Below, one piece after another: positions 14-23,361 of a DNA stretch of 26,160 nucleotides. The position numbers were made by a program, and so were the translations under genes. The DNA comes from a virus. Where the stretch lies: the IMG/VR virus record IMGVR_UViG_3300017720_000057, positions 1 to 26,160 of that record; one strand, written 5' to 3'. Each line of letters starts with the position of its first letter. Position 1 is the stretch's first letter. The notes beneath the pieces are model-generated. The model worked only from the letters and a program-made list of their open reading frames with translations, ran no database searches and was not told the origin of the DNA.

Positions 14-463
14 ATGATGACCGGACAAAATCACAGACAAGGAATTGCTTTATGGAGCTGTCTGCAGCGGGGTGACGACGTAAGTCGAGTAGTTAGTATC
101 CACCGATACATATCGAGCCAGCTGGTTGACTGGTTAACGTCTGAAGAGTTTATAGCCTACCAGAACCATGAAGACATGCTGCCCGAGTATGCTAAAGCCG
201 AGTTCGCTCCTGCGTCTGCTGCTCCTAATGTTGGTTCCTTAAATGGAGACGCTCTTTGTATCGATAATGAAGATCCAGCGTTTCCAACTTACTTAAAAGA
301 CGGCCAGCTCCAGCCTGTCTTAAATTTTGATCTTTCGCAATACCAGTGGGCTCCAACGTCTGAGGAAGCTAAAGAGGCAGAACACTATGAGCTAGGGAAC
401 TACGATGCTTACATGCTATCTGATGCGTGGAAAGAGCGAGTAGCGAGTAAACGACATGCCTAA
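14..463 (+). CDS. hypothetical protein, 5' end uncertain (may start upstream of the window)
   Basis: I do not recognise this protein. The frame is open from base 2, so the ATG pair at 14/17 may be internal and the gene may be truncated by the window edge. The 149 residues seen are hydrophilic and acidic in the second half, with no membrane segment, Cys cluster or clear motif. Its stop overlaps the start of the next gene by 8 nt, as is typical of the co-translated genes here, which supports it being coding. Confidence 0.55.
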   Translation: MMTGQNHRQGIALWSCLQRGDDVSRVVSIHRYISSQLVDWLTSEEFIAYQNHEDMLPEYAKAEFAPASAAPNVGSLNGDALCIDNEDPAFPTYLKDGQLQPVLNFDLSQYQWAPTSEEAKEAEHYELGNYDAYMLSDAWKERVASKRHA

Positions 464-686
464 AGAGGGTGATATCGTTAAGGTAACCGGCAACTTCTCA
501 AGTGACTGGAAATATATCGAAGGTATCCACGGGTTAGTCTTAAGTGCTAATAGCTTCCCGGGCCATGCCGCAGTTCGAAACGCCGAAGTTATGCTCTTCC
601 TAAACAACGGAAATATCGAGATCAAGGATTTCGTTGTTCAATGCTGGCCAGGACTAGAGGATCTAACTGTGATCGCATCGCTATAA
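456..686 (+). CDS. small SH3/KOW-like protein
   Basis: This 76-residue protein opens with the array signature (PKEGDIVKV). A Gly-Leu-Val turn and a strand ending in a NNGNIEI turn follow, matching the G-[IV] ... V-x-W-x-[ND]-G layout of the many paralogues downstream. It is the first member of that family in the window, lying before the first GTGCAA promoter. It overlaps the previous gene by 8 nt. The fold call is by pattern only; the function is unknown. Confidence 0.6.
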   Translation: MPKEGDIVKVTGNFSSDWKYIEGIHGLVLSANSFPGHAAVRNAEVMLFLNNGNIEIKDFVVQCWPGLEDLTVIASL

Positions 687-2868: not shown

Positions 2869-3036
2869 ATGAAAGTCGGAGATACAGTTCGAAGGTTAGG
2901 CGACGACAAGAAGTATAAAGTCAAACTTCTAAAGTCTGACCAGCGTGGCATTTGGATTCAATTGCATCATGATGATATGAGCTTTGATGTTTTCCACTGC
3001 GCAAAATATTTTGAGGTGTGTAATGAAAGTCGGTGA
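2869..3036 (+). CDS. small SH3/KOW-like protein (55 aa)
   Basis: Begins MKVGDTVRRL and ends in the typical tail FEVCNESR. It is one of the shortest members, with little beyond one barrel. Its end overlaps the next start by 14 nt: ATGAAAGTCGGTGA is both its last codons (N-E-S-R-stop) and the next protein's M-K-V-G-D. Confidence 0.65.
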   Translation: MKVGDTVRRLGDDKKYKVKLLKSDQRGIWIQLHHDDMSFDVFHCAKYFEVCNESR

Positions 3037-3268
3037 TTTGGTATTACGAAAAGTTAGTCCACATGCTGAGGACCATTTAAACTCTTTGCAGGAAGCAGCT
3101 GCATATGAGCAGCGATGTAGGCTCGGATACGGGATTATTTTGACCAAACAAACGGGAGGTAAGAATCCGCCTCATCCATGCATCACTGTTTATTATCCGA
3201 AAGTTGGAAAGATTTACGATATCGCAGAAAATTTAATGGAGGTGATCAGTGCAAGTACGCGAAGGTGA
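3023..3268 (+). CDS. small SH3/KOW-like protein
   Basis: 81 residues from ATG 3023, chosen because GAGGTG lies 6 nt before it and the MKVGDLVLRK signature follows at once; an upstream in-frame ATG at 2984 would only add shadow sequence. It has a GYGIILTKQ turn, a CITVYYPKVGKIYD strand and a LMEVI tail. It overlaps the next gene by 20 nt. Confidence 0.7.
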   Translation: MKVGDLVLRKVSPHAEDHLNSLQEAAAYEQRCRLGYGIILTKQTGGKNPPHPCITVYYPKVGKIYDIAENLMEVISASTRR

Positions 3269-3434
3269 GCTGGTAAGATACATGAGTAGAATAGTCCTTG
3301 TCATCGACGATAGTGATCCAGTCTGGGTCGAAGGATTGGAGATTGGCGAAAATGAGATAGGGCGTTATAAGCGTCGCGTACTTAGGAAGCTTGATGATAG
3401 TCATGAAGAAGAAAAAGAAACCGCTAGTTCTTAA
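3249..3434 (+). CDS. small SH3/KOW-like protein, GTG start
   Basis: 61 residues: VQVREGELVRYMSR, then a VWVEG strand and an acidic, charged tail. GGAGGTG lies 5 nt before GTG 3249. The start bases read GTGCAAG, the same letters as the promoter -35 box, but no -10 box follows at 17 nt. It overlaps the next gene by 32 nt. Confidence 0.6.
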   Translation: MQVREGELVRYMSRIVLVIDDSDPVWVEGLEIGENEIGRYKRRVLRKLDDSHEEEKETASS

Positions 3435-3543
3435 AGGTCGTAATTGGTATGCAGTTGCAGCACACTTACGCTCTGGTGCAGGAAAGCACAAGGATAAGTC
3501 AAAGTATAGTCGAAAGATTAAGCACAAGAAAGGATGCGAATGA
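3403..3543 (+). CDS. small highly basic protein (46 aa)
   Basis: Starts MKKKKKPLVLKGRNWYAVAA and continues HLRSGAGKHKDKSKYSRKIK; about a third of residues are Lys or Arg. Short basic proteins with an 'N-x-x-A-x-x-A-x-x-x-R-S-G ... H-x-D/K' look occur in many phages with no agreed function; binding to nucleic acid is a guess. It overlaps its neighbours by 32 and 4 nt. Confidence 0.55.
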   Translation: MKKKKKPLVLKGRNWYAVAAHLRSGAGKHKDKSKYSRKIKHKKGCE

Positions 3544-3746
3544 AGATTCAAAAGAGATCAATATTAACTCGAGTTCTTCACACTAGAGAGATTGATATCA
3601 CAGAGTCACAGATCAAGGAGTGGGAAGAGGGTGGATTAATTCAAGATGTTGCACCCCACTTGTCAGTTGAAGATCGAGAGTTTCTTATTAACGGAGTTAC
3701 TGAAGCTGAATGGCGTGAAGCGTTTGGAGAAGAAGATGAAGATTAA
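3540..3746 (+). CDS. conserved small acidic phage protein
   Basis: 68 residues from ATG 3540, preferred over ATG 3534 because AAAGGA (3529-3534) then has normal spacing. The pattern TREIDITESQIKEWEEG, LIQDVAPHLS, DREFLINGVT, EW is one I associate with a common short phage family ('T-x-EI-x-VT ... W-x-x-G-x-LIQ ... L-S-x-x-DREF-x-x-G-T'). It is helical and acidic with no known role. It overlaps the next gene by 11 nt. Confidence 0.75.
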   Translation: MKIQKRSILTRVLHTREIDITESQIKEWEEGGLIQDVAPHLSVEDREFLINGVTEAEWREAFGEEDED

Positions 3747-3906
3747 GGTTGGAGCACAAGTTCGACACGTTGGGTGTGAACTGCCTCATCGCGGGAAGGT
3801 CGTTGCTGCTCGTCATGTTCGTGATGAGTATTTGGTTGTGTGGTACCAGAATGGCCGCAGATGGACAGGAAAGCATAGTAGAATGGCACTTAAGGAGGTA
3901 TCATGA
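3736..3906 (+). CDS. small SH3/KOW-like protein (56 aa)
   Basis: MKIKVGAQVRHVG, a GKVVAARHVRDEYLVVWYQ strand pair with the N-G turn (YQNGRRW), and a LKEVS tail: a clean single barrel, quite basic. Start ATG 3736 sits in the acidic tail codons of the gene before. It overlaps the next gene by ATGA (3903-3906). Confidence 0.7.
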   Translation: MKIKVGAQVRHVGCELPHRGKVVAARHVRDEYLVVWYQNGRRWTGKHSRMALKEVS

Positions 3907-4190
3907 TGGATAGGATGGTTTTGGAAAAAGAAGTTACCAGGATGGTAGAATCGTACAGGAAAATGAAGAAGAATGTTCCTGGAAGCTCTATGTATCGAGA
4001 GGCAATGTGGCAATACGCAAATATGGCGCACGGAGGAGATGGTGGTCCAACCGGTAACGTCGACGGCGGAACGATTCGTGGCAAATACTATGATAATCAC
4101 CCTAACGAGTTTTTCTTTATGGTTCTTTCTGGCCTCGGAGAGTTTGAGCTATACATGAAGTCCGGTTCGGACCCCATTGGGATTCCTTAA
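3903..4190 (+). CDS. hypothetical protein, 95 aa
   Basis: Not recognised. A Met/Lys-rich amphipathic helix (residues 1-30) leads to a Gly-rich segment (HGGDGGPTGNVDGG) and a second compact part with FFFMVLSGLGEFELYM. AAGGAGG lies 4 nt before ATG 3903. It closes the second operon. Confidence 0.7.
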   Translation: MMDRMVLEKEVTRMVESYRKMKKNVPGSSMYREAMWQYANMAHGGDGGPTGNVDGGTIRGKYYDNHPNEFFFMVLSGLGEFELYMKSGSDPIGIP

Positions 4191-4217
4191 AAATAGTTTC
4201 TTTTTTATTGCCAACGC

Positions 4218-4246
4218 GTGCAAGAATCCTACAGATATGGTATAAT
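4218..4246 (+). promoter_or_regulatory. promoter, GTGCAA family, copy 3
   Basis: GTGCAA (4218-4223), 17-nt spacer, perfect TATAAT (4241-4246). Preceding CGC and the ATATGG before the -10 match the other copies. A T-rich stretch (4197-4209) just upstream may act as an UP-like element or end the previous transcript. Confidence 0.82.
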
Positions 4247-4279
4247 GTTTATGTAAACAATCATGGCTTAGGAGCTTTT

Positions 4280-4498
4280 ATGAACATTGGTAATCTCGTC
4301 ACTTTCACCCGCATTCCGGATCAAAACACCCCAGGGGCGCCGAAGGCTGTACAGCCTGGCGTCGGAACAATCGTCAAAGAACGCCATGAAGACAACGTTG
4401 TCTTTAAGGGAAACCTTTGGTGTGACGTTCTCTGGCCGAACGGTCAGATAACCAAGTGCTTCAAGCAAGACTTGACAATCATCAAGGGGGCAAAATAA
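4280..4498 (+). CDS. small SH3/KOW-like protein
   Basis: 72 residues from ATG 4280 with TAGGAG upstream. MNIGNLVTFTR replaces the usual GD with GN; then GVGTIVKE, a clear CDVLWPNGQITK strand-turn and a LTIIKG tail. The V-L-W-P-N-G turn is the same as in the members at 8755 and 9793. First gene after promoter 3; its stop overlaps the next ATG by one base. Confidence 0.75.
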   Translation: MNIGNLVTFTRIPDQNTPGAPKAVQPGVGTIVKERHEDNVVFKGNLWCDVLWPNGQITKCFKQDLTIIKGAK

Positions 4499-4839
4499 TG
4501 AGACGTTATAGAAACTACGGTCATGACGGTGGATATGATTCAACCGGAAGGTGGAGATCAGAAGCATGGCATATGGATGGCGGTGCTAACGATGAAGGCT
4601 GGCATCAAGCTTGGTGTCATAGTTGCGGTAAAAAAACTGAACATGGGCTTGGTGAAGGTTGTGTCCCTTGTGGCGATCGTGCTGCAGTTACACGTGCACG
4701 TCGAAACAATCAACACAAAGTCAAAGTCCGGACTGTTGGTGAGCATACTGTCAAGACATACCCAGGTGGCAAGTCTTACTGCAGCTGCAAAAGCTTTCAG
4801 TTTCGCAAAACCTGCAAACACATCGGGATGGTGTCATAA
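4498..4839 (+). CDS. SWIM zinc-finger protein with an additional CxxC pair
   Basis: 113 residues. The C-terminal part has C95-x-C97 ... C106-x-H108 (YCSCKSFQFRKTCKHIG), the CxCx(n)CxH layout of SWIM zinc fingers, which bind DNA or proteins. A second possible zinc site is C40-x-x-C43 with C55-x-x-C58. The N terminus is Gly/Tyr/Arg-rich and probably disordered. SWIM domains usually sit in larger recombination or transposase proteins, so this stand-alone double-zinc form is notable. Zinc binding is inferred from motif only. Confidence 0.75.
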   Translation: MRRYRNYGHDGGYDSTGRWRSEAWHMDGGANDEGWHQAWCHSCGKKTEHGLGEGCVPCGDRAAVTRARRNNQHKVKVRTVGEHTVKTYPGGKSYCSCKSFQFRKTCKHIGMVS

Positions 4840-4982
4840 TGGAAAACATTACTATTGAAAACCTCGCAATCGTTGGTCAAGCAGCGATAAAGATGGTAGG
4901 TTATTTTTGGCCGATTATTATTCTAGCAATTGGCTACATGATTTGGGAACGACACATGGAGGTGAAGTATGACACCAAATGA
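4839..4982 (+). CDS. membrane microprotein (47 aa)
   Basis: Short polar start, then one membrane helix (residues 20-36, VGYFWPIIILAIGYMIW) followed by positive residues (ERH), suggesting an N-out, C-in topology. The start shares one base with the stop before it; the end overlaps the next gene by 14 nt and holds that gene's GGAGGTG site. Confidence 0.6.
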   Translation: MENITIENLAIVGQAAIKMVGYFWPIIILAIGYMIWERHMEVKYDTK

Positions 4983-5196
4983 AATTTATAAGGCTGCCGG
5001 TCTTACTGAGCATATGATTCAATTAATGCCAAGATATCTAGCAGGCATCGATGAGTTCTATGATACTCCGGCTTGTAATAAGCTATATGATTACTTTGCT
5101 TTCGAAGTATGCACAATGCCTTACGAAGTAGCAAAAGCTCGAACAGAGTGTCCGGACGAGTGGATTTTAAAACAGGTGATTAATGAAAATAGGTGA
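4969..5196 (+). CDS. hypothetical helical protein, 75 aa
   Basis: Not recognised and not of the SH3/KOW type. It looks all-helical: TPNEIYKAAGLTEHM, YLAGIDEFY, LYDYFAFEVC, then an acidic segment. It shares the array's way of joining genes: 14-nt overlaps at both ends, and GGAGGTG 5 nt before ATG 4969. Its end (KQVINENR) has the same wording as family tails because the overlap dictates it. Confidence 0.7.
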   Translation: MTPNEIYKAAGLTEHMIQLMPRYLAGIDEFYDTPACNKLYDYFAFEVCTMPYEVAKARTECPDEWILKQVINENR

Positions 5197-5371
5197 TAAA
5201 TGCAGGTACAAATCAGACCACAACAACGTTGGTTGCTGGGACAATCATGGTGTCATCTTGCATATTGAGGGTCCATACAGTGCTAGAGTTTACACCATTG
5301 GGATACCAAAAACCGGCAAGCTTATAAGGAAAACAGATCATTATGTCCTCCCTGCTGTGGAGGCAAAATGA
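5183..5371 (+). CDS. small SH3/KOW-like protein (62 aa)
   Basis: MKIGDKCRYKSD, a NHGVILHIEG turn, a RVYTIGIPKTGKLI strand pair. ATG 5183 lies 4 nt after AGGTGA in the previous gene. It overlaps the next gene by 4 nt. Confidence 0.65.
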   Translation: MKIGDKCRYKSDHNNVGCWDNHGVILHIEGPYSARVYTIGIPKTGKLIRKTDHYVLPAVEAK

Positions 5372-5574
5372 AAGCCGGTGATATGGTAAGAAACAAGAAC
5401 TCTGAGTCCGGAGAGCTCGGTCTTTTCATAGGGCTTCGTACATTTAAGCCCAGCAAAACAGAAGATCAACGTCAGAGCTATACGTGTGCTGAGGTTATGT
5501 GGTTCGAACGAAATGCAGTGAACGGAGATCGAATTAGCACAATTCAAACAGATCTTTTGGAGGTGGTCAATTAA
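5368..5574 (+). CDS. small SH3/KOW-like protein
   Basis: 68 residues: MKAGDMVRNKNSESG, GLFIGL turn, AEVMWFERNAVNGD strand, and the family tail LLEVVN. Compared with close relatives it has a longer polar loop between the first two strands (FKPSKTEDQRQSY). One-base overlap with the next start (TAATG). Confidence 0.68.
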   Translation: MKAGDMVRNKNSESGELGLFIGLRTFKPSKTEDQRQSYTCAEVMWFERNAVNGDRISTIQTDLLEVVN

Positions 5575-5690
5575 TGCAAAATCAAAAAATCAAAAAACAT
5601 TTTCAGGGAGAAAATCTCTTAGAAATTGTATGCGGCATCTTGATACTGCCCGCGTTGTGGCTTCTTGTCTGCGGAGTGTTTGTATTATGA
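5574..5690 (+). CDS. membrane microprotein (38 aa)
   Basis: A basic start (QNQKIKKHF), then one helix from about residue 17 to 38 (EIVCGILILPALWLLVCG) that includes two Cys and ends at the stop: N-in topology by the positive-inside rule. GGAGGTG lies in the tail of the previous gene. It overlaps the next ATG by 4 nt. Confidence 0.6.
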   Translation: MQNQKIKKHFQGENLLEIVCGILILPALWLLVCGVFVL

Positions 5691-5920
5691 AAGAGGGCGA
5701 CATGGTTCGATTTGCAAAGTGGGAAGAAGTAAATATTCAAAACAGCAAGTCATGGCCGAATACTCCGAAAAATCATATCGGGATATTAGTAGAACATGAC
5801 AAGCTAATGGGTGTCACAAGAGTCCTTCATGAAGGGGAACTTTTAACACTTAGATCTGTATTCGTTACGAAGGCAGGCAAGAAAGATTTTAACTCGGAAG
5901 GGATGCGTGAGGATAGGTGA
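5687..5920 (+). CDS. small SH3/KOW-like protein
   Basis: 77 residues from ATG 5687, where MKEGDMVRFAKW begins; the frame extends to 5630 but that part is a shadow of the membrane microprotein. GGAG lies 12 nt upstream. It has HIGILVEHD, VTRVLHEGELL, then a charged tail (GKKDFNSEGMREDR). 14-nt overlap with the next gene. Confidence 0.68.
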   Translation: MKEGDMVRFAKWEEVNIQNSKSWPNTPKNHIGILVEHDKLMGVTRVLHEGELLTLRSVFVTKAGKKDFNSEGMREDR

Positions 5921-6098
5921 TTTAGTCAAACCCAAGTCAAACTCAATCTTTACTGTGTGGGGTAAAGCTAGCTCTAACGAAGTGTCTGGTGTCATTATCG
6001 ACTACAGAGGTGAAGAAGTTGTTGTTTTTTGGGGCAACAAATATGGAATTGAAATAGAATACCCAGATCAATTAGAGGTGGTAAGTGAAAGAAGGTGA
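5907..6098 (+). CDS. small SH3/KOW-like protein, GTG start
   Basis: 63 residues, VRIGDLVKPKS, a SGVIIDYRGEEVVVFWGNK strand pair and the tail QLEVVSERR. This is one of the clearest examples of the consensus. GTG 5907 is chosen because it gives the 14-nt overlap GTGAGGATAGGTGA and puts the signature at the N terminus. Confidence 0.72.
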   Translation: MRIGDLVKPKSNSIFTVWGKASSNEVSGVIIDYRGEEVVVFWGNKYGIEIEYPDQLEVVSERR

Positions 6099-6309
6099 TA
6101 TGGTAAAAGTTGTTCAGGCTTTAGGCTGTGGCCAATCTCCTCGCAGGACGCGTGACTGGGGCTTAGCCGTAATCATTAGCATATTCAAAGCTCCTCCTCT
6201 CTTCTATGGAAAGATTGGTCCATTTGATATCGGAGACGACGTAGTAGTAATGTTGTCAGACGGATCACTAAAAACTTTCAATTCTAAGAGCATCAAGGCG
6301 GCACAGTGA
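6085..6309 (+). CDS. small SH3/KOW-like protein, GTG start
   Basis: 74 residues: VKEGDMVKVVQ, an extended loop (GCGQSPRRTRDWG), LAVIIS, an FDIGDDVVVMLSDGS strand-turn and a SIKAAQ tail. GAGGTGG precedes GTG 6085. It holds a second GD pair before the V-x-x-x-S-D-G strand. Four-nt overlap (GTGA) with the next gene. Confidence 0.7.
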   Translation: MKEGDMVKVVQALGCGQSPRRTRDWGLAVIISIFKAPPLFYGKIGPFDIGDDVVVMLSDGSLKTFNSKSIKAAQ

Positions 6310-6506
6310 AAACAGGTGACTTAGTAAAAAGAACGCCTAAGTGGGGTGACTGGGTTGCTCAGAATCCATGGATGTACACAGATGAAGATCATCAGATTGG
6401 AATGATTATCAAAGTAGGCGCCTTGCGCCTTGTTGAAGTTGTGTGGCCTACTGGCATTAAAGCAGAAAGAAAAGATAAGCTGGAGGTTGTCAGTGAAGGT
6501 CGGTAG
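6306..6506 (+). CDS. small SH3/KOW-like protein, GTG start
   Basis: 66 residues: VKTGDLVKRTPKWGDW, a DHQIGMIIKVG turn, RLVEVVWPTGIKAE, tail KLEVVSEGR. It is nearly an ideal family member. The start follows AAGGCGG by 4 nt. 14-nt overlap with the next gene. Confidence 0.72.
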   Translation: MKTGDLVKRTPKWGDWVAQNPWMYTDEDHQIGMIIKVGALRLVEVVWPTGIKAERKDKLEVVSEGR

Positions 6507-6657
6507 TATCGTTCGTGTAAAGTCAATATCCGGACACCCCATCGGCATCATTGTCGAGATTGACAGTAGCTGCGGATGGCCGCGGGTTCTAATCGAATCA
6601 GGTAAACTAGTCTTCTGGCCAATGGAACAAATGGAGGTTATCAATGAAAGTCGGTGA
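6493..6657 (+). CDS. small SH3/KOW-like protein, GTG start (54 aa)
   Basis: VKVGSIVRVKS (GS replaces GD, and the upstream stop is TAG from GGT-AGT), GHPIGIIVEIDS, PRVLIESGKLV and tail QMEVINESR. GTG 6493 is chosen over the in-frame ATG at 6430 because it follows GGAGGTTG and restores the family N terminus and 14-nt overlap. Confidence 0.7.
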   Translation: MKVGSIVRVKSISGHPIGIIVEIDSSCGWPRVLIESGKLVFWPMEQMEVINESR

Positions 6658-6850
6658 TGCTGTGATGTTTACATCAAACTGCTCTTATTCACGATGGTTC
6701 TTTGGTCATTTAGGAATAGTTGAGAGCACAAACTACGCCAAAGATGGAAAGCTTCACTGTCGAGTTAGATGGATGCAGCCGGTCAAATACTTTGGCAGAA
6801 TGACCAAGATGTCTGATTTTTGTGCCGATAAGTTTACACTGTCAAAATGA
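6644..6850 (+). CDS. small SH3/KOW-like protein
   Basis: 68 residues: MKVGDAVMFTSN, FGHLGIVEST, LHCRVRWMQP, then a longer end (FGRMTKMSDFCADKFTLSK) with two Cys in the protein's second half. GGAGGTT precedes ATG 6644. It overlaps the next start by ATGA. Confidence 0.7.
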   Translation: MKVGDAVMFTSNCSYSRWFFGHLGIVESTNYAKDGKLHCRVRWMQPVKYFGRMTKMSDFCADKFTLSK

Positions 6851-7026
6851 AAATAGGTGATCTCGTTACATACACATGTCCATTGACAGAAAATACTTTG
6901 GTCGGTCATATAACTGACAGCATGGAAGATTTAAGCGGTTTTTACGTATACGAAGTTATATGCACAGACCCGTACGATAGAGGGTGGTTTGAAGACTATC
7001 AATTGGTGGTGATAAGTGAAAAGTGA
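6847..7026 (+). CDS. small SH3/KOW-like protein (59 aa)
   Basis: MKIGDLVTYTCPL, VGHITDSME, FYVYEVICTD, tail YQLVVISEK. Just below the usual length cut-off for gene finding, but the signature and the overlaps (4 nt before, 11 nt after) make it solid. In the 11-nt overlap the next protein's Ser-Asp codons (AGT GAT) supply the TGA. Confidence 0.68.
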   Translation: MKIGDLVTYTCPLTENTLVGHITDSMEDLSGFYVYEVICTDPYDRGWFEDYQLVVISEK

Positions 7027-7513
7027 TATTTGGTGGTCAGGATCTTTGTTTTCCGGCAGTGTGGCTAGATTAGACGCAATAGATGATGAAGATGATTATG
7101 GAAGAACATCTTCTGGTGATAGAAAGTATAGAGGAATGGTGTACAGCCATTTCAATTCTTTGGTTGGGTCTGAAGTCAATTACTATGGCGCTGACAGTGC
7201 TGAACATGCTTTTAAGATTGACGATATCGTATTCAAAGTCCTGGAAGACCCTAACGATGGTTATCGATCCTGCTTAGGCGTGATTGAATACGGAGAACAG
7301 AATAGCTCTATTTTCTTTCACACACCTGTAGCAAGAGTCCGGATCGAAATATTTCAAGAGTCTTCAGCGTACGGCAATGAAAAAGATGGATACAGGCTAG
7401 TTGACGTAAAAGACGGTCATGTGTGGCTAGAGTTTGGAACAGATCATACTGACGACTACTACCCAATGTTTGTTTTTAATCACCACCCGAGAGGTCCTAG
7501 TGATACCCCCTAA
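7016..7513 (+). CDS. hypothetical protein, 165 aa, embedded in the array
   Basis: The longest protein in the central array and not recognised. The N terminus (VKSDIWWSGSLFSGSVARLD) is followed by acidic loops. A middle part (residues 66-100) reads KIDDIVFKVLEDPNDG and LGVIEYGE, which could be a buried copy of the SH3-like pattern. The C-terminal third is rich in Asp, His and aromatics (WLEFGTDHTDDYYPMFVFNH), a possible metal site. It starts at GTG 7016 with an 11-nt overlap and ends with a 14-nt overlap. Confidence 0.72.
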   Translation: MKSDIWWSGSLFSGSVARLDAIDDEDDYGRTSSGDRKYRGMVYSHFNSLVGSEVNYYGADSAEHAFKIDDIVFKVLEDPNDGYRSCLGVIEYGEQNSSIFFHTPVARVRIEIFQESSAYGNEKDGYRLVDVKDGHVWLEFGTDHTDDYYPMFVFNHHPRGPSDTP

Positions 7514-7721
7514 GCTTAAAAGAAGTGGCGGTCCGGCGTACTTTCAAAAAGGAGATCTGGTAAAGCTCAGATATGATTTTGCATGGAGGGCTACTAAGAT
7601 AGAGAGTTACATTGACCACCCTATGATTGTTCTAGAAGTTCACGGAAATGCGATTAAAGTTTTAAGACCTGACGGCACTATTAAATCAGACCTCTCTGAA
7701 AATTATATACTTTTACCCTAG
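7500..7721 (+). CDS. small SH3/KOW-like protein, GTG start
   Basis: 73 residues from GTG 7500 (GAGAGG lies 7 nt upstream; the frame opens at 7434 only as a shadow). A 13-residue basic extension precedes the signature (FQKGDLVKLRYD). Then MIVLEVHGNAIKVLRPDGTIK gives a very clear V-x-x-x-D-G strand-turn, and the tail is NYILLP. It is the last gene before promoter 4. Confidence 0.72.
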   Translation: MIPPKLKRSGGPAYFQKGDLVKLRYDFAWRATKIESYIDHPMIVLEVHGNAIKVLRPDGTIKSDLSENYILLP

Positions 7722-7727
7722 AAGCAC

Positions 7728-7756
7728 GTGCAAGATTCTGTCTGTTGTAGTACAAT
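7728..7756 (+). promoter_or_regulatory. promoter, GTGCAA family, copy 4
   Basis: GTGCAA (7728-7733), 17-nt spacer, TACAAT (7751-7756). It lies only 6 nt after a stop codon. The region before the -10 (TTGTAG) is less like the others, but the -35 with its following G and the spacing are unchanged. AAAGGAGG (7780-7787) serves the next gene. Confidence 0.72.
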
Positions 7757-7793
7757 TAATATATACACGGTAACACAACAAAGGAGGTCCCAG

Positions 7794-7988
7794 ATGACCA
7801 AGAAGATCAAAGTTGGAGATAGAGTTTACTATCGAGCACCACGGATCGCGGATCGTAAGAAAGGATCAAAGCCAGAGTTTACAGTGGTAGAGCTTTATGA
7901 TGGCGGTCGAATGGCTAACGTCCGGCACGACAAAGGTTACATCTTCACCGGTTACATTGTAGACCGAATGACCAAGTACGTAGGATGA
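7794..7988 (+). CDS. small SH3/KOW-like protein (64 aa), basic
   Basis: KKIKVGDRVYYRAPRIADRK, an EFTVVELYDGGRMANVRHD strand-turn-strand, then TGYIVDRMTKYVG. It is strongly basic, unlike the acidic members. ATG 7794 has AAAGGAGG 6 nt upstream; the frame opens earlier at 7728, inside the promoter, and is rejected. First gene after promoter 4. Confidence 0.72.
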   Translation: MTKKIKVGDRVYYRAPRIADRKKGSKPEFTVVELYDGGRMANVRHDKGYIFTGYIVDRMTKYVG

Positions 7989-8125
7989 CAACACATCAAT
8001 GGATAGATCAAATAGCACAAGGCGTAATCCTCTCCGGAGGATACGCTTATTTGCTGGCCATGCTGGCCAACTACCTAGAAACAGGAAGCCCGTACTGGGG
8101 TCTGGAGGACGAGGATGATGATTGA
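7985..8125 (+). CDS. membrane-associated microprotein (46 aa)
   Basis: A central hydrophobic stretch (residues 10-30, IAQGVILSGGYAYLLAMLAN) and a strongly acidic end (EDEDDD). The start overlaps the previous stop by ATGA; TAGG precedes it. The acidic tail codons (GAGGATGATGATTGA) also hold the next gene's start. Confidence 0.5.
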   Translation: MTTHQWIDQIAQGVILSGGYAYLLAMLANYLETGSPYWGLEDEDDD

Positions 8126-8258
8126 TTTCTTGCTTAATGTTGCTGCTGTGGTTGTTGGCATCGTCGTTTATAAGAAGCTTGAGAATGTGTACGAAGACTT
8201 GCGATGGAAGTATTACCAACGTCATGATTCTTCAAAAGACTTTTGGGAGAGCTGGTGA
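8115..8258 (+). CDS. membrane microprotein with charged tail (47 aa)
   Basis: MMIDFLLNVAAVVVGIVVYK is an N-terminal membrane helix, followed by a charged amphipathic tail (KLENVYEDLRWKYYQRHD). This is the architecture of small inner-membrane regulators, but no family is recognised. GGAGGACGAGG upstream gives the ribosome site. Start 8115 or 8118. It shares one base with the next start. Confidence 0.58.
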   Translation: MMIDFLLNVAAVVVGIVVYKKLENVYEDLRWKYYQRHDSSKDFWESW

Positions 8259-8509
8259 TGATTAATATCAGCGACATTTTTACCGGGACAATTATTAGGT
8301 TTGTAGGGTGTGGAGATTGTGCTGGTAAGACAGTATGCTTTTTCTGTGAAAAGGGGGTAAAAAAATATGGTGAAGTTATTGCTGTGTACAGGGATTTCGC
8401 TATACCTACAGTTGAAGTTAAAGTGAAAGGCTCATTAAAGACTTTGGAGCTTACACAAGAAGATATCAACGATCCTTGTTTAGTTGAATCTATCTGTGCA
8501 GATGATTAA
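8258..8509 (+). CDS. small SH3/KOW-like protein with Cys cluster
   Basis: 83 residues from ATG 8258 (GGGAG at 8245-8249). The N terminus is changed (INISDIFTGTIIRFVGCGD) and a loop carries CGDC and CFFC, four Cys spaced C-x-x-C ... C-x-x-C that could bind zinc. Then YGEVIAVYR and TVEVKVKGSLKTLEL follow the family pattern. It resembles 10309, which also has a CFCFFC loop. Confidence 0.65.
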   Translation: MINISDIFTGTIIRFVGCGDCAGKTVCFFCEKGVKKYGEVIAVYRDFAIPTVEVKVKGSLKTLELTQEDINDPCLVESICADD

Positions 8510-8768
8510 AAATAGACAGAAAGAAGTGGGTAGAGTATTGTTTGGAAGAATGCCAGAAGACTTTGCAATAGAATTTCAACCTGATGTATATGTTGGTGAT
8601 TTACTAGAGATAAAAGAAAGCATGATGCTTATGGAGCCCATGGGGCCTGTGCTAGTCTTGGAGTCAGACAACGACAAGGGTATATATGAAATTATGTATT
8701 TGAGAAACAACTACGTAATAAGTTGCGGTCGCATGGATATTCGAAAGAAAATCTGTGAAGCCCGGTGA
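8502..8768 (+). CDS. small SH3/KOW-like protein
   Basis: About 88 residues from ATG 8502 (GTG 8496 and TTG 8484 are in frame and no good ribosome site decides between them). An N-terminal basic extension is followed by PDVYVGDLLEIKES, MGPVLVLESDNDKGIYEIMY and the tail MDIRKKICEAR. 14-nt overlap with the next gene (GTGAAGCCCGGTGA). Confidence 0.62.
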   Translation: MIKNRQKEVGRVLFGRMPEDFAIEFQPDVYVGDLLEIKESMMLMEPMGPVLVLESDNDKGIYEIMYLRNNYVISCGRMDIRKKICEAR

Positions 8769-8970
8769 TCTAGTGAAGTACCAGTGGCCTTCATTTTTAG
8801 GTGAGATGAACAAAGAGTTTGACAGAGGGATTGGCATTATTCTAAGCATTGAGGCGTGGGAAGACGGCGGCTCTGGTCGAAACTGTGGTGTAAGCGTCGA
8901 TGTGATGTGGCCAAATGGCACTATTGATACTTGTCTAGATGACGAACTTTTTTTGGAGGAAGAGATTTGA
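8755..8970 (+). CDS. small SH3/KOW-like protein, GTG start
   Basis: 71 residues: VKPGDLVKYQWPS, GIGIILSIEAW, SVDVMWPNGTIDT, tail ELFLEEEI. The V-M-W-P-N-G turn is the strongest form of the family's second motif. The next start (TTG) overlaps its stop by 4 nt. Confidence 0.72.
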   Translation: MKPGDLVKYQWPSFLGEMNKEFDRGIGIILSIEAWEDGGSGRNCGVSVDVMWPNGTIDTCLDDELFLEEEI

Positions 8971-9161
8971 GTAGCAGTAATATTTTTCTAGGGGATCTTG
9001 TTCTTAATCACTTGTGGAGGTACAATGGCTACGATGATGTTGGATTAGTTGTCGCCATACTCAATAGCTTTACTTCTCCTCAATTACTTGCTGTAATGTG
9101 GAATAATGGAAAAATAGAAAAAGTTTATGAGGATGAAGTGGAAGGAGTTGTTCTAGAATGA
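8967..9161 (+). CDS. small SH3/KOW-like protein, TTG start (64 aa)
   Basis: SSSNIFLGDLVLNHLWRY, VGLVVAILNS, LLAVMWNNGKIEKV, tail VEGVVLE. TTG 8967 is the only start that leaves the signature complete; GGAGGAAG lies 5 nt upstream. ATGA overlap with the next gene. Confidence 0.68.
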   Translation: MSSSNIFLGDLVLNHLWRYNGYDDVGLVVAILNSFTSPQLLAVMWNNGKIEKVYEDEVEGVVLE

Positions 9162-9289
9162 ATGAAGCAGGACTTTTAGCATTTCAGCTAGCAGAATGGT
9201 GGGAAGCTGTGATTATTACAGGGTTCGGTTCTCTACTACTTACAACTTTTACAATTATCTGTTGGAGAAAAATTGGTAAATCCACATAA
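9158..9289 (+). CDS. membrane microprotein (43 aa)
   Basis: NEAGLLAFQLAEWWEA, then one membrane helix (VIITGFGSLLLTTFTIIC) and a short basic tail (WRKIGKST): N-out, C-in topology. GGAG lies 13 nt upstream and ATGA overlaps the previous gene. Its tail overlaps the next gene by 17 nt. Confidence 0.58.
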   Translation: MNEAGLLAFQLAEWWEAVIITGFGSLLLTTFTIICWRKIGKST

Positions 9290-9497
9290 ACATAAAGTTC
9301 ACGTAGGTGATCTGGTAGAGTTTTATAGTTCATTTGACTCATTCATGAGAGATTATGAGCATCGAAATCCAGGCATTGTAATTGAAACAAGAATAGGGAA
9401 GCGTACAGGATCGCTAGTAGATACACAGTCAGCAAAAGTAATGTGGTCAGATAGTTCAGTAACTTCAGAGCACTCAACATATCTTAAGATGGTGTAA
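9273..9497 (+). CDS. small SH3/KOW-like protein, TTG start
   Basis: 74 residues: a His/Lys-rich extension (VNPHKHKVHVGDLVEFYSS), PGIVIETRIG, SAKVMWSDSSVT, tail TYLKMV. TTG 9273 has GGAG 6 nt upstream; no ATG or GTG alternative keeps the signature. Confidence 0.66.
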   Translation: MVNPHKHKVHVGDLVEFYSSFDSFMRDYEHRNPGIVIETRIGKRTGSLVDTQSAKVMWSDSSVTSEHSTYLKMV

Positions 9498-9499
9498 CA

Positions 9500-9793
9500 T
9501 TGAGCGGGCTAAGATACAAAGATAGAAACCCTGTTGTTGGTGACATGTTAGTGGTCACTCCTTGTAAAGATCGCTACCAACACATACCTGCAGGACAGCC
9601 AGAAGAAGAGTTTCTAGGAATCATCTACGAAATTCATCGTGACAAGTGGGGGCACAAAAACAAAGTGTTGGTTGAATGGTCGGAAAATGTGCCACCTAAC
9701 TACAATCCCCGACATGGATTTAGCGGCATTAACATTCACAATCTTCGTCATGAATTTAAGATCATTAGAGATGGAATAGAGGTTGTAGGGTAG
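9500..9793 (+). CDS. SH3/KOW-like protein with long loops, TTG start (97 aa)
   Basis: RYKDRNPVVGDMLVVTPCKD, a 20-residue loop, FLGIIYEIHRDKWG, NKVLVEWSENVP, a second long loop with HGFSGIN, and tail IEVVG. It is a stretched family member in which both loops are expanded. TTG 9500 is 3 nt after the previous stop; AAGATGG is the only purine-rich stretch upstream. Confidence 0.62.
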   Translation: MSGLRYKDRNPVVGDMLVVTPCKDRYQHIPAGQPEEEFLGIIYEIHRDKWGHKNKVLVEWSENVPPNYNPRHGFSGINIHNLRHEFKIIRDGIEVVG

Positions 9794-10059
9794 TGGGCCC
9801 GGGTGATCTAATAACTGCTACGTGGCCCGACGGCTCAAAAGTTGTAGGAATATATGCTAGATCTGAGCGTGGATATGTAGTGATCTTAGACTTACAAAAA
9901 AACAAAGAGGTGAATTGCAATATGAGAACAGTAAAGCTTGAGCCAGGTAATCAGAATAAGATTTACGACGCTGATAAGATAGTTCGAACTATCCAGTTAA
10001 CTGTGGCTTTTATTTGGGGGTGTTTGCTCGGAGCATGTCTTTACTGGATTGCCATTTAA
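9793..10059 (+). CDS. SH3/KOW-like domain fused to a C-terminal membrane helix, GTG start
   Basis: 88 residues. Residues 1-50 are an array domain (VGPGDLITATWPDGSKVVGI, then VVILDLQKN). Residues about 67-88 form one membrane helix (IQLTVAFIWGCLLGACLYWI) ending at the stop. It thus joins in one chain the two types of small protein that are otherwise separate genes here, and would hold the SH3-like domain at the membrane on the cytoplasmic side. Stop and next ATG share one base. Confidence 0.68.
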   Translation: MGPGDLITATWPDGSKVVGIYARSERGYVVILDLQKNKEVNCNMRTVKLEPGNQNKIYDADKIVRTIQLTVAFIWGCLLGACLYWIAI

Positions 10060-10319
10060 TGGTAGGTCTGATCAATTACAGGAATTCCAGTGCCAACATT
10101 GGTGATATGATAAAGTTCAAAGACGTCAGGATGGATGGCACTGTCAGGTCTGAACACGTGGGTATCATATATGATATTGTGGAAGGTTACGCGAGACTTC
10201 AGTGGATCGACAACTTAAAGCCATATGGTTACGTAGAAGATGTTGGTTACTCAATTACAAAAATACAATACGAATACGATGTATTCACCATTTTAGCAAA
10301 GGTAGAAGATGTTGAATAA
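10059..10319 (+). CDS. small SH3/KOW-like protein
   Basis: 86 residues from ATG 10059 (the frame opens at 10014 only as a shadow). SSANIGDMIKFKDVR, HVGIIYDIVEGYARLQWIDN, then an added beta-like segment (SITKIQYEYDVFTILA). It overlaps the next gene by 11 nt. Confidence 0.65.
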   Translation: MVGLINYRNSSANIGDMIKFKDVRMDGTVRSEHVGIIYDIVEGYARLQWIDNLKPYGYVEDVGYSITKIQYEYDVFTILAKVEDVE

Positions 10320-10554
10320 AGGCGATTTAGTCCAAGTAAAAAGCGATAAGTACTGCAGATATTCAACTGATGTTTTTAGCGGTGGATGTTTTTGTTTTTT
10401 TTGTGTCAACAACATGCGTAATGCCATGGGACTAGTCACTGTAGTGTGGACAGACGAAGACGATAGCCAGTCTGCTATTGTGGAGTTTGCATGCGGCGAG
10501 AATGTTTTTAGAGAGCGTGAATATCATACACTTCAAGTGTTAAGTCGAGCGTAA
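10309..10554 (+). CDS. small SH3/KOW-like protein with Cys-rich loop
   Basis: 81 residues: LNKGDLVQVKSDKYC, a loop GGCFCFFCVNN, AMGLVTVVWTDEDD, a later Cys, and tail HTLQVLSRA. The clustered Cys and the one at 8258 suggest a metal-binding sub-branch. It is the last gene before a 114-nt gap that carries promoter 5. Confidence 0.66.
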   Translation: MLNKGDLVQVKSDKYCRYSTDVFSGGCFCFFCVNNMRNAMGLVTVVWTDEDDSQSAIVEFACGENVFREREYHTLQVLSRA

Positions 10555-10609
10555 GGGATTCTAGAACATGCATACTCTCAACTTTAATCGACACTGTTTA
10601 TTGTAGCGT

Positions 10610-10638
10610 GTGCAAGACTCTATTGGGTGTGGTATAAT
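10610..10638 (+). promoter_or_regulatory. promoter, GTGCAA family, copy 5
   Basis: GTGCAA (10610-10615), 17-nt spacer, perfect TATAAT (10633-10638), with GTGTGG before the -10. The 10555-10668 gap around it holds no other feature that I can see. A purine-rich leader with AGGAGAGGAGG serves the next gene. Confidence 0.82.
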
Positions 10639-10668
10639 AATACTATAAACAAGGAGAGGAGGTCTTAG

Positions 10669-10923
10669 ATGACCGCTTTTGATAAAACAAAAACTCGCAT
10701 TCGGTTTTTAATAATGGAGCAGCTTCCTGTCGACGGTCGTTACGTTTCAAAGGCCGACTTAGAACAGAATGTATCTATAGACGCCCGTAGTTTAAGTCTG
10801 TGCTACTCCACGAACTTGTTTGATAATATACTCAACGACCTTATTAAAGATCAATACGTGGTCAATCTGGAGGGCAAGGTAATTGCTACTCACATGGGCT
10901 TAGTTAAGTCAAATATTTTATAG
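10669..10923 (+). CDS. hypothetical protein, possible small winged-helix
   Basis: 84 residues, no known motif. The order (helix TRIRFLIMEQL; RYVSKADLEQNV; helix SLSLCYSTNLFDNILNDLIKDQ; strands YVVNLEGKVIATHMG) is the H-H-H-strand-turn-strand order of a winged-helix DNA-binding domain. That is a structural guess. It sits alone between promoters 5 and 6, as a regulator might. Confidence 0.7.
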   Translation: MTAFDKTKTRIRFLIMEQLPVDGRYVSKADLEQNVSIDARSLSLCYSTNLFDNILNDLIKDQYVVNLEGKVIATHMGLVKSNIL

Positions 10924-10928
10924 ACCTC

Positions 10929-10957
10929 GTGCAAGTATTGAGCAGATATGGTATATT
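10929..10957 (+). promoter_or_regulatory. promoter, GTGCAA family, copy 6
   Basis: GTGCAA (10929-10934), 17-nt spacer, TATATT (10952-10957), with ATATGG before the -10 and TTTATGTGGTTAAGGA after it, like copies 1-3. It is 6 nt after a stop codon. Confidence 0.8.
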
Positions 10958-10989
10958 GTTTATGTGGTTAAGGATTAGGAGTTAAACAC

Positions 10990-11799
10990 ATGTCTCGTCG
11001 TAGAAAAAGTAAGTTCGCCATCGATTTTAACCAAGAGCCTAAGGTAGTTGCGCGACTTGTCTTGAAGGATTTACTTCGAAAGCACCCACGCGGTGCTACC
11101 GGAAAGCTTTCTAGCAAAGACTATGAATATGGTCGTAATCCTTACAAGTGCTACCGAAGCTCAGCTGAGCGTGAAGGTGTTGGTATTTACTGCGGATACA
11201 CTGAGGATCAGATCTTTAATATCTTCATCAAGCCGGGAGCTCCTCTTTCAGGAGGATACTCACCTATAAATCAAGCGCTTGAGTTTCTTTGGAAAAAGGA
11301 TGAGTACCCTAAGCTTACTGATGCAGAGATTGAAGACCGTTATGAATGGATCCCTGAGTCTACTATTACGAGGCGTGGCAACAAGATTCGTGATAGAATT
11401 GATGCTGTTAAGCGCATCATTGAGAACCGCGGTCGCCCCGGTGTTTACCGAGTCAACACAGGATATCGATCAACTTTTAGTGACGTCAACTTTTACGTTT
11501 GGGCAAAGAACTTAAAAGATGCTGAGGGTCAATTTAATCTTTTGACAAAGCCTTTATTGGCTGCAGCTGATCCTCGATTTACAATGGAAGATCATGTCTG
11601 TACTACACAACATGAGTATGATTCTAAGCCTGATGCATTACTAACCCATTCTCAAAAAACTATTGATGAAATGAATGATCTAGAAGTCCGTCTGCAGAAA
11701 CAAATGGATGATATCAAGAAAAAACTAGAAGGTCTCCGCGGCATTAAAGAGATGGTTACGCAAACAGCTGTTAACTCCATCTTGTCAGAAGGCGTATAA
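10990..11799 (+). CDS. hypothetical protein with C-terminal coiled coil, 269 aa
   Basis: Not recognised. Very basic start (SRRRKSKFA), a soluble core with many Tyr, Arg and Gly (residues 45-175, including GVGIYCGYTEDQIFNIF and RGRPGVYRVNTGY), and a coiled coil near residues 217-255 (SQKTIDEMNDLEVRLQKQMD). It is the largest protein of the left half and has its own promoter (copy 6), with AGGAG 9 nt before ATG. A role in nucleic-acid binding is suggested only by its charge. Confidence 0.8.
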   Translation: MSRRRKSKFAIDFNQEPKVVARLVLKDLLRKHPRGATGKLSSKDYEYGRNPYKCYRSSAEREGVGIYCGYTEDQIFNIFIKPGAPLSGGYSPINQALEFLWKKDEYPKLTDAEIEDRYEWIPESTITRRGNKIRDRIDAVKRIIENRGRPGVYRVNTGYRSTFSDVNFYVWAKNLKDAEGQFNLLTKPLLAAADPRFTMEDHVCTTQHEYDSKPDALLTHSQKTIDEMNDLEVRLQKQMDDIKKKLEGLRGIKEMVTQTAVNSILSEGV

Positions 11800-11807
11800 T
11801 CGATCTT

Positions 11808-12074
11808 ATGATTAACTCAACACTACAGTGTATTACATATTTTTTAGAAGCAGCTATGTCGACACATGTGCTGTATGACGCTGTTTACTTATTTCTAGTT
11901 GCTTTGTTAGTGTCTGCATCTTTTGGAGGAACTCTTACATTTGTGGGGGCTGAGTATCTATGCAAAAATCTAGTACGCAAACTAAATTTAAAGTGGGTGA
12001 GCTGGTTAGATTTGTTCATGTCAAAAAAAGTAAACACCCACAAATATGGAAAAGAACAGAAGGGTTGGGTGTAA
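11808..12074 (+). CDS. membrane protein overlapping the next gene by 115 nt
   Basis: About 88 residues with two hydrophobic parts, the main one at residues 25-48 (YDAVYLFLVALLVSASFGG), and a basic C-terminal tail. The tail lies entirely within the first 115 nt of the next gene, in another frame, which is unusual even here. No strong ribosome site precedes ATG 11808. The N-terminal part is likely coding; the true C terminus is in doubt (see the A7 run at 12023-12029). Confidence 0.5.
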   Translation: MINSTLQCITYFLEAAMSTHVLYDAVYLFLVALLVSASFGGTLTFVGAEYLCKNLVRKLNLKWVSWLDLFMSKKVNTHKYGKEQKGWV

Positions 12075-12229
12075 TAGTGTCAACTAATAAAATTGAAGAA
12101 TCTGATTTAGATACGTGTGTCTACACTGTCTTGTCAAACGGGGAAGCTTTTGACTGTATCGAAGTTTATCCTATAGAATCTTCTGAATATGTGCGTGCTA
12201 ACAATGAAGATAAACACAGAAAAGAATAG
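11960..12229 (+). CDS. small SH3/KOW-like protein
   Basis: 89 residues: KFKVGELVRFVHVKK, GLGVIVSTN, CVYTVLSNGEAFDCI, tail EVYPIE then a charged end. The family signature begins at about residue 10, so the long overlap with the membrane gene cannot be removed by choosing a later start. It overlaps the next gene by 26 nt. Confidence 0.65.
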   Translation: MQKSSTQTKFKVGELVRFVHVKKSKHPQIWKRTEGLGVIVSTNKIEESDLDTCVYTVLSNGEAFDCIEVYPIESSEYVRANNEDKHRKE

Positions 12230-12440
12230 TATTACAGAAGGTGATCTGGTGATGCTTAGCACTTCGTGGCCTCAAAGATCTGTAACACTTTCTGCAGTAT
12301 CTAGCCCAAACATTGGAATCGTGACTGAGGTCAGGGCTGCAGCAGGAATGTACGATGGTCATCGTTACGTAAAAGTTTTATGGGAAAACAATACTCACAG
12401 AGAGCATCACATAAAAGATCTGATCAGAGTTCGGCAATGA
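12204..12440 (+). CDS. small SH3/KOW-like protein
   Basis: 78 residues from ATG 12204: a polar extension, ITEGDLVMLSTSW, NIGIVTEVRA, RYVKVLWENN, tail LIRVRQ. It overlaps neighbours by 26 and 4 nt. Confidence 0.68.
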   Translation: MKINTEKNSITEGDLVMLSTSWPQRSVTLSAVSSPNIGIVTEVRAAAGMYDGHRYVKVLWENNTHREHHIKDLIRVRQ

Positions 12441-12622
12441 ACGAAAAGGGTTTTAAGCCGGGAGATCTTGTTCATTATGCTGACGGTTCAGCTGTTAACG
12501 ACTGGACTGGTTTAGTAATAGAAGTCTCTGAAGTAACAGCAACAGTTTTTTGGGGACATGAAAAGTTTATTTGGGTACATGATAGTGATGACTTAAAGTT
12601 ATCTGATAAGGTGGCATTATGA
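12437..12622 (+). CDS. small SH3/KOW-like protein (61 aa)
   Basis: NEKGFKPGDLVHYADGS, WTGLVIEVSEVTATVFWGHEK, tail LKLSDKVAL. It is the last clear member of the array before the TM2-domain gene, which it overlaps by ATGA. The ATG at 12437 sits within the previous gene's last two codons. Confidence 0.7.
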   Translation: MNEKGFKPGDLVHYADGSAVNDWTGLVIEVSEVTATVFWGHEKFIWVHDSDDLKLSDKVAL

Positions 12623-14723: not shown

Positions 14724-15026
14724 ATGGCGAAAAGAAAATCAAAACTTAAAACTAAGAAACCTGAAATTGAAGAGCTTGACGGATATAAGATAGGTCAAGA
14801 AATTTACTGTAAACGATATCCTGACGGCAAACTTTCGTATGGAAGAATTGAAAGCTTTCACCTTAAAACAGAAAAGGGAAAAGCAGTTACCTTCATAGAC
14901 TTTATTACTAGCAAGTACAGACTGTCGCTTATGTCAGACATTATAGAAAACCCTACACCTAAACAAGTGGACGAATGTCAGACACAAATAGCTGTTTTAA
15001 AAAGAAGAAAAAAGACTACAAAGTAA
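14724..15026 (+). CDS. hypothetical basic SH3-like protein (100 aa)
   Basis: Lys-rich start (AKRKSKLKTKKPEIEEL), then YKIGQEIYCKRYPDGKLSYG and VTFIDFITSKYRLSLMSD, which fit a distant form of the SH3/KOW-like pattern, and a helical Lys-rich end. No clear ribosome site before ATG 14724. Its 3' end overlaps the end of the convergent reverse-strand gene by 11 nt. Confidence 0.65.
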   Translation: MAKRKSKLKTKKPEIEELDGYKIGQEIYCKRYPDGKLSYGRIESFHLKTEKGKAVTFIDFITSKYRLSLMSDIIENPTPKQVDECQTQIAVLKRRKKTTK

Positions 15027-16758: not shown

Positions 16759-17167
16759 GCGCGAAGACCTTTTATCAATGTTTCAACCCACGTCTTCTGT
16801 AATTGTTCGTGTTGTATTGTCACATGATGTTGTGCACAGAAAAAATTTAAAGTTTGCTAGTCAAGCACTTCAGCAATCTGGTTTTGCAAAACTTATAGTT
16901 TCTTTAGTAAACAACCTTCCTAATTCTTGTGCGTTAGAATTACTAGGAGAAGATAACAAGGATGTAGACTCGATTGACTTGTTTTGTAAGTATTTTCTCA
17001 GAACTAATTGTCGTCATCATGTCAATTACCATGATGAGAAGATGTGCACAGTTGAATTTTCTTGTAAGTTTAAATCAACTATTCAAGACTTGCTTGCATT
17101 ACCGATTGATATCTTAGATCAACTTCACTTAGAAGTCATAACTCCTGTAGGGAATGTTCAATTATGA
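16751..17167 (+). CDS. hypothetical protein, 138 aa
   Basis: Not recognised. Alpha/beta soluble protein with a Cys/His-rich middle (DLFCKYFLRTNCRHHVNYHD). Overlapped by 8 nt with the phosphomannomutase and by 4 nt with the SET/cytidylyltransferase gene, so probably part of the same sugar or modification pathway (inference from position). Confidence 0.75.
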   Translation: MSKREDLLSMFQPTSSVIVRVVLSHDVVHRKNLKFASQALQQSGFAKLIVSLVNNLPNSCALELLGEDNKDVDSIDLFCKYFLRTNCRHHVNYHDEKMCTVEFSCKFKSTIQDLLALPIDILDQLHLEVITPVGNVQL

Positions 17168-20835: not shown

Positions 20836-20873
20836 TTTACCAGGACAAACAGCAGACCATAATTAAAAACGTT

Positions 20874-23357: not shown

Positions 23358-23361
23358 TCAA

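Follow-up and report, generated by a model that had tools for sequence, protein, structure and literature searches.

Arrays of small SH3/KOW-like barrel genes connected by a 14-nucleotide coding overlap in uncultured T4-like phages

The window analyzed here is the entire IMG/VR virus record IMGVR_UViG_3300017720_000057 (26,160 bases), in which open reading frames (ORFs) and start codons were derived anew. Between positions 456 and 12,622 it encodes approximately 27 to 33 small SH3/KOW-like barrel proteins, and about 30 genes of this region display an xGDxV N-terminus, a G-[IV] turn and a V-x-W-like strand. Comparisons among related phages indicate that such genes, which frequently overlap by exactly 14 nucleotides (nt), are gained, lost and reordered as whole units at this common joint, a mode of change absent from an initial annotation of the same DNA. 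The array probably represents a set of translationally coupled cassettes coding for host-directed binders in a T4-like phage, which would be reshuffled by short-homology recombination.

The initial annotation had placed about 30 paralogous mini-proteins sharing these three motifs, and little else, between 2869 and 12,622. The ORFs and profiles bear out this gene set and its low conservation, as G4 is the sole invariant residue in an alignment of the window members and the mean column identity is 15%. The limits of the region have to be revised: the set is indeed found there, but it starts upstream (genes at 456, 1321 and 1658) and is interrupted by non-barrel genes (GIY-YIG at 2429-2794, SWIM at 4501-4839, and others at 7016-7513 and 10669-11799). 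Several ORFs also begin later than their longest reading. A profile built from the 30 window members matches 28 places in the window, a circular result because these same members were used to build it. A profile trained on 89 proteins from other phages and a single protein from the window gives 14 window matches at E<=0.01, and an iterated profile, run on 2,647 ORFs of eight phage records, retains 27 window members with no reversed decoy at E<0.005. The middles of the members vary by 3.5-4 bits per column and their ends are conserved; isoelectric points (pI) range from 4.2 to 10, hence the members are not uniformly basic. Searches of the members with Pfam, PHROGs and PADLOC returned nothing past marginal family matches.

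Structure prediction covers two members. For gene 6493, AlphaFold (AF2; alignment of 90 relatives) produced a five-strand barrel with a mean predicted local distance difference test score (pLDDT) of 94, and gene 8755 shows the same strand order (pLDDT 87.5) in a model based on an alignment of window paralogues only. The common barrel proposed initially is thus recovered in both models, neither of which departs from this type. The Foldseek matches of gene 6493 are YorP of the Bacillus prophage SPbeta, Tudor, PetP, NusG and Spt5 KOW (template modeling (TM) score ~0.7-0.8, E ~0.01), and a second structure comparison (VIA) gave Z scores of 8.9 for Spt5 KOW, 8.6 for MutS2 and 8.2 for NusG; those of gene 8755 are weaker (TM ~0.6). 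The family profile searched against PDB sequences reaches chloroplast uL24 (uL24c, 7e-4) and NusG (0.0095), a marginal relation to KOW proteins, and Pfam KOW is matched by two of 90 members (best 8e-4), which is marginal yet consistent. All viral structure matches are uncharacterized or single-copy proteins, and no convincing match to a described family was obtained. On the basis of the predicted structures and profile matches, the members are SH3/KOW-type barrels, a fold that by itself points to no binding partner.

The most distinctive feature of these genes is the way in which they are connected. From fetched loci we gathered 956 distinct members, and adjacent members overlap by exactly 14 nt in 435 of 590 pairs and by 4 nt in 57 of 590, whereas among other neighboring genes of the same loci the 14-nt overlap occurs in 6 of 349 cases and 4 nt is the most frequent value. 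The overlap reads (A/G)TGAAAGTCGGTGA; one of its frames opens the downstream protein (MKVGD) and the other closes the upstream one ((N/S)ESR-stop), and a GGAGGT Shine-Dalgarno motif lies upstream of the start within the joint. The conserved N-terminal motif is partly double-coded by the joint. The ESR-type C-terminal tail is a by-product of the overlap: 382 of 497 genes that run into a 14-nt overlap have it, as against 9 of 443 genes that do not. Allowing up to three mismatches, the window contains five joint sites for zero expected by chance. At exact joints, the barrel profile matches 143 of 145 upstream ORFs and 137 of 144 downstream ORFs, and for 147 exact joints the flanking genes mostly still match once the joint-coded residues are removed. 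Outside its double-coded part, the joint varies in the manner of synonymous sites, which argues against a classical protein-recognized site, and a structured RNA or DNA element was rejected, as three joints fold no better than shuffled sequences. Sigma-70-like sites are not in excess in the window (22 versus 31.6 in shuffles), in a scan of the sigma-70-like type that leaves phage-type promoters outside it.

The members and joints of the window are as follows (aa, amino acids; + denotes the given strand):

456..686, +, SH3/KOW-like mini-protein, 76 aa
1321..1671, +, SH3/KOW-like domain with helical C-terminal extension, 116 aa
1658..1879, +, SH3/KOW-like mini-protein; 14-nt overlap with the preceding gene
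2869..3036, +, SH3/KOW-like mini-protein, 55 aa, NESR tail
3013..3036, +, 14-nt overlap joint with Shine-Dalgarno, GAGGTGTGTAATGAAAGTCGGTGA
3023..3268, +, SH3/KOW-like mini-protein, 81 aa; orthologues in four other phages, where the neighbors differ
3249..3434, +, SH3/KOW-like mini-protein, 61 aa, weaker match
3736..3906, +, SH3/KOW-like mini-protein, 56 aa
4280..4498, +, SH3/KOW-like mini-protein, 72 aa
4501..4839, +, SWIM zinc-finger protein
5183..5371, +, SH3/KOW-like mini-protein, 62 aa; 14-nt overlap with the preceding gene
5368..5574, +, SH3/KOW-like mini-protein, 68 aa; orthologues in L054, L101 and L052
5687..5920, +, SH3/KOW-like mini-protein, 77 aa
5907..6098, +, SH3/KOW-like mini-protein, 63 aa; 14-nt joint at both ends
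6085..6309, +, SH3/KOW-like mini-protein, 74 aa
6306..6506, +, SH3/KOW-like mini-protein, 66 aa
6493..6657, +, SH3/KOW-like mini-protein, 54 aa; 14-nt joint at both ends; predicted structure, pLDDT 94
6634..6657, +, exact consensus joint GAGGTTATCAATGAAAGTCGGTGA, comprising Shine-Dalgarno, end of gene 6493 (EVINESR-stop) and start of gene 6644 (MKVGD)
6644..6850, +, SH3/KOW-like mini-protein, 68 aa
6847..7026, +, SH3/KOW-like mini-protein, 59 aa
7500..7721, +, SH3/KOW-like mini-protein, 73 aa
7794..7988, +, SH3/KOW-like mini-protein, 64 aa, weaker match
8258..8509, +, possible member, 83 aa, weak match
8550..8768, +, SH3/KOW-like mini-protein, 72 aa
8755..8970, +, SH3/KOW-like mini-protein, 71 aa; predicted structure, pLDDT 87.5
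8967..9161, +, SH3/KOW-like mini-protein, 64 aa
9273..9497, +, SH3/KOW-like mini-protein, 74 aa
9500..9793, +, SH3/KOW-like mini-protein, 97 aa
9793..10059, +, possible SH3/KOW-like domain with hydrophobic C-terminal segment, 88 aa
10059..10319, +, SH3/KOW-like mini-protein, 86 aa
10309..10554, +, SH3/KOW-like mini-protein with Cys-rich insertion, 81 aa
11960..12229, +, SH3/KOW-like mini-protein, 89 aa
12204..12440, +, SH3/KOW-like mini-protein, 78 aa
12437..12622, +, SH3/KOW-like mini-protein, 61 aa

The Cys-rich insertion (C-x-CFFC) is conserved in one barrel subfamily, comprising the window gene 10309-10554 and relatives at L053:1384, at L125:4047, in L132 and in L126, and possibly binds metal. 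A few non-barrel genes also carry the joint, namely those for a DUF2061 membrane protein (flanked by joints on either side in both L099 and L130), a SWIM-like protein that forms a cassette with a 14-nt overlap at each end in the relative L127 (2434-2745), and short helical or membrane peptides. The DUF2061 cassette lies at different places in two closely related arrays (L099:1751 and L130:4599). At L088:8072, the gene of a gp32-like single-strand binding protein begins with the joint and codes for MKVGE.

Cassette families, compared on their bodies without the joint residues, rarely keep their neighbors. Across 14-nt joints, a homologous neighbor is kept in 9 of 47 cases at 80-95% identity and in 1 of 9 above 95%, and for the 13 window members with recognizable relatives elsewhere the window neighbor is kept in none. 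For example, one cassette of 168 nt is 99.4% identical in two contigs and 96-97% identical in a third, each time with unrelated neighbors on both sides. Where neighbors switch, identity rises or drops to background within the joint, its mean reaching that level some +5 to +15 past the start codon. The clearest case is that of contigs G036 and G033, which are collinear and 96-99% identical over 27 kb outside the array, whereas inside it at least seven blocks of one to three cassettes are reordered, with edges at -20 to +23 of a start codon, and other cassettes are unique to one phage. The cassettes common to G033 and G037 are 83-95% identical, most collinear genes 65-79%, which means that cassettes travel between lineages. 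L076 and L078 have flanks that are 99.5-100% identical and differ by a single cassette of 176 nt bounded by identical 20-nt direct repeats, both ATGAAAGTCGGTGATTTGGT. Two cassettes of L127 are missing from L103, whose joint is a hybrid, with its left half matching one of the L127 joints and its right half matching the second. In a set of 135 similar blocks, joints contain 65% of the block starts and 62% of the block ends, versus 13% and 11% at random points. Tyrosine integrase (PF00589) was found in none of 11 records, with a control match in 14 of 14, and RecA-family genes are present in all 10 of the larger records.

The individual proteins appear to be under constraint. For related cassettes of different phages, the ratio of nonsynonymous to synonymous substitution rates (dN/dS) is 0.14-0.16 in all unsaturated identity bins and exceeds 1 in none of 115 unsaturated pairs. 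Such low values indicate that each protein retains its function even as the composition of the set shifts; it is the repertoire that varies.

The joint pattern GAGGTNATNARTGAAAGTCGGTGA matches at least 119 stretches of viral contigs, and sixteen large records together with the window harbor 10 to 32 members each with a strict profile. With the same profile, 13 of 14 control records, all annotated or huge phages (T4, KVP40, P-SSM2, S-SM2, HTVC008M, phiKZ, SPbeta, four huge phages, immuto, Mel-JY01 and RM378), are without any member and LR756508 has one. Using the DUF444 gene of the window as a query yielded 18 related contigs, four of which have at least two members (G005, G006, G015 and, weakly, G014); its 269-aa array protein or phosphomannomutase as query recovered no relatives. 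The carriers are uncultured T4-like phages, mainly from water samples, and a search of 50,697 phage records (tblastn with two cassettes, blastn with the joint consensus) gave no real match. A T4-type gp23 major capsid gene is present in all 10 large array records tested; the window itself contains no capsid gene. The nearest gp23 sequences are those of a huge phage, Microcystis phage Mel-JY01, Rhodothermus phage RM378 and Flavobacterium immuto phages. RM378 serves as the reference for the Far-T4 group (PMC4360716), for which a link to marine Bacteroidetes has been reported (PMC7198788), and from the gp23 of the relatives we infer that the array carriers lie on the Far-T4 side of the T4 superfamily. 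Halobacteriovorax, Deltaproteobacteria, Flavobacteriales and WOR-3, suggested as hosts by joint-bearing contigs of metagenome-assembled genomes (MAGs), were rejected, because contigs other than L195 resemble binned phage contigs. In L195 (CP070664.1, a WOR-3 bin), array phage DNA is joined to cellular genes beside a stretch of N, and the MAG is probably chimeric.

A stop-start overlap with a Shine-Dalgarno sequence couples translation, and short homologies can be used by phage recombinases. Each cassette would code for one small barrel with a different face and would be hooked to its neighbor, as the Shine-Dalgarno and start of the next gene lie inside the end of the previous one; translation of neighboring cassettes may thus be coupled via the joint. 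Since the first 15-35 nt are common to almost all of the genes, joint-to-joint homologous or annealing recombination is likely, with the repeated joint as the shared homology; it would probably be carried out by a RecA-family (UvsX-like) recombinase of the phage itself, or by annealing proteins. Such events would delete, insert or reorder single cassettes with start, Shine-Dalgarno and stop left intact, and purifying selection would keep each cassette as the set turns over fast. Sequence analysis shows the barrel and the overlap, the gain, loss and reordering of cassettes at joints in related phages, and the low dN/dS, and the outcomes of exchange suggest a role of the joint in recombination. 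With less certainty, the products may be host-directed binders, given that their middles vary, their pI spans 4-10, the content of relatives differs and no core function is apparent; their targets in the early phase of infection would be host proteins or nucleic acids, with a repertoire matched to hosts or defenses. The arsenal of binders proposed in the initial annotation is upheld as far as the common barrel and the many copies are concerned, and the variable middles, the pI spread and the lack of a convincing family match fit different binders, the binding itself being presumed. More tentatively, and at somewhat less than even chances, the joint, being ribosome-binding site, start and stop in one, may have been kept because it allows T4-like phages to reshuffle single-fold binders by homology and integrase-free, with content following host defenses or host range and rare DUF2061 or SWIM-like cargo using the same joint.

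Several observations weigh against this scenario. The array is less regular in the window, where the 14-nt overlap is found at 10 of 41 consecutive gene junctions, and shuffling was observed in relatives, the window having no close strain for comparison. All array records are metagenome assemblies. Intragenic chimeras occur as well: at >=85% nt identity, 22 pairs match in one half only versus 33 in both halves, so that joints as the sole exchange points are not supported. Finally, gene-sized exchange combined with selection for intact genes would likewise place edges near gene ends. An explanation of this kind, which we regard as unlikely, is that the joint is a coding and translation device only, SH3-type genes naturally starting with MKVGDLV and tight packing favoring coupling, and that the mosaic arises from illegitimate recombination anywhere with survival of gene-intact recombinants. 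Besides these chimeras, it would account for joint bases that vary at positions synonymous in both frames, and gene-edge breakpoints are common in phage mosaicism. However, the clean single-cassette indel between 20-nt repeats and the hybrid joint are the outcomes expected of repeat-mediated exchange, and at 60-80% identity neighbors are kept in 11 of 87 cases in 14-nt joints versus 10 of 37 at other junctions, although these numbers are small.

Reshuffling of conserved cassettes also has to be weighed against a library diversified by selection on point mutations, as the initial annotation had envisaged. The variable protein middles between conserved ends would agree with such a library, but the uniformly low dN/dS does not support diversifying selection, and a reverse transcriptase (PF00078), as expected for a diversity-generating retroelement, is absent from all 11 records searched, making this reading very improbable. 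We give equally little credence to an assembly artifact in which short repeats led the assembler to misorder cassettes. Joints are indeed repeats in metagenome assemblies and contig G036 ends inside its array, but joints of ~20-37 nt are shorter than usual reads, cassettes measuring ~180 nt; moreover, the scrambled G033 array lies inside a 190-kb contig and was compared with one from a different sample, identity between shuffled copies is 92-99% and not 100%, and the same pattern is present in hundreds of arrays.

Downstream of the array, the window encodes a trypsin-like protease, a phosphomannomutase, a SET-cytidylyltransferase fusion, ClpP, a helicase and a DUF444-SpoVR-PrkA triad. The protease (15016-15888) has a lipoprotein-like signal and is the sole long minus-strand gene. 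The phosphomannomutase (15970-16758) is of eukaryotic type (PF03332, 6e-38), found here in a phage, and a SET domain is fused to a cytidylyltransferase-like domain at 17164-18063. The DUF444 (YeaH-like), SpoVR and PrkA genes are consecutive at 20808-25296, again on a phage; the closest SpoVR among named phage records are those of huge phages of 595-642 kb and of Thermus phages.

Small early genes of large phages are mostly orphans. Here, one orphan class of uncultured, mainly aquatic T4-like phages is reduced to one fold and one assembly rule, and the joint provides a sequence tag by which similar arrays can be traced in any virome. Should the barrels be directed at the host, the arrays would offer a large and ready collection of compact inhibitors or binders.

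Searches of the full-text literature, subscription papers being outside this scope, yielded no account of arrays of this kind. The five-strand barrel, with a profile reaching the KOW domains of uL24c and NusG, resembles NusG/Spt5 KOW, uL24, MutS2 KOW, Tudor and SPbeta YorP, but unlike these proteins the members are free-standing, 50-90 aa long and arrayed. According to a passage of PMC8022706 citing Kroger and Hobom 1982, the lambdoid nin genes form an interlinked chain. Like the present arrays, nin consists of small genes stacked with stop-start overlaps and variable in content between relatives, the nin genes being nonessential and early. However, nin overlaps are ATGA (4 nt) between unrelated families, and the nin genes belong to the delayed-early right operon of lambdoid phages, whereas here the overlap is 14 nt, within one fold, in arrays of tens, and the relatives carry T4-type gp23. 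Integron cassettes are likewise promoterless gene arrays with gain, loss and reordering of single genes at a repeated boundary, but in the arrays the integrase is lacking in the records searched and there is no attC-like structured site, the boundary being a coding overlap and exchange probably proceeding by homology. Mobile regulatory cassettes of T4-type phages (promoter-early stem-loop, PeSL), reportedly described by Arbiol et al. in 2010 (cited in PMC4177764), are said to be shuffled as modules through a short boundary sequence. They share with the arrays a short common sequence at the boundaries of small T4-type genes but are intergenic, with a promoter and stem-loop, whereas both sides of the joint are coding, it includes the start, the Shine-Dalgarno and the stop, and the three joints that were folded show no clear structure. 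Neither of the nearest precedents, the nin genes and the T4-type mobile regulatory cassettes, brings together a joint that is coding, a single fold and arrays with tens of members.

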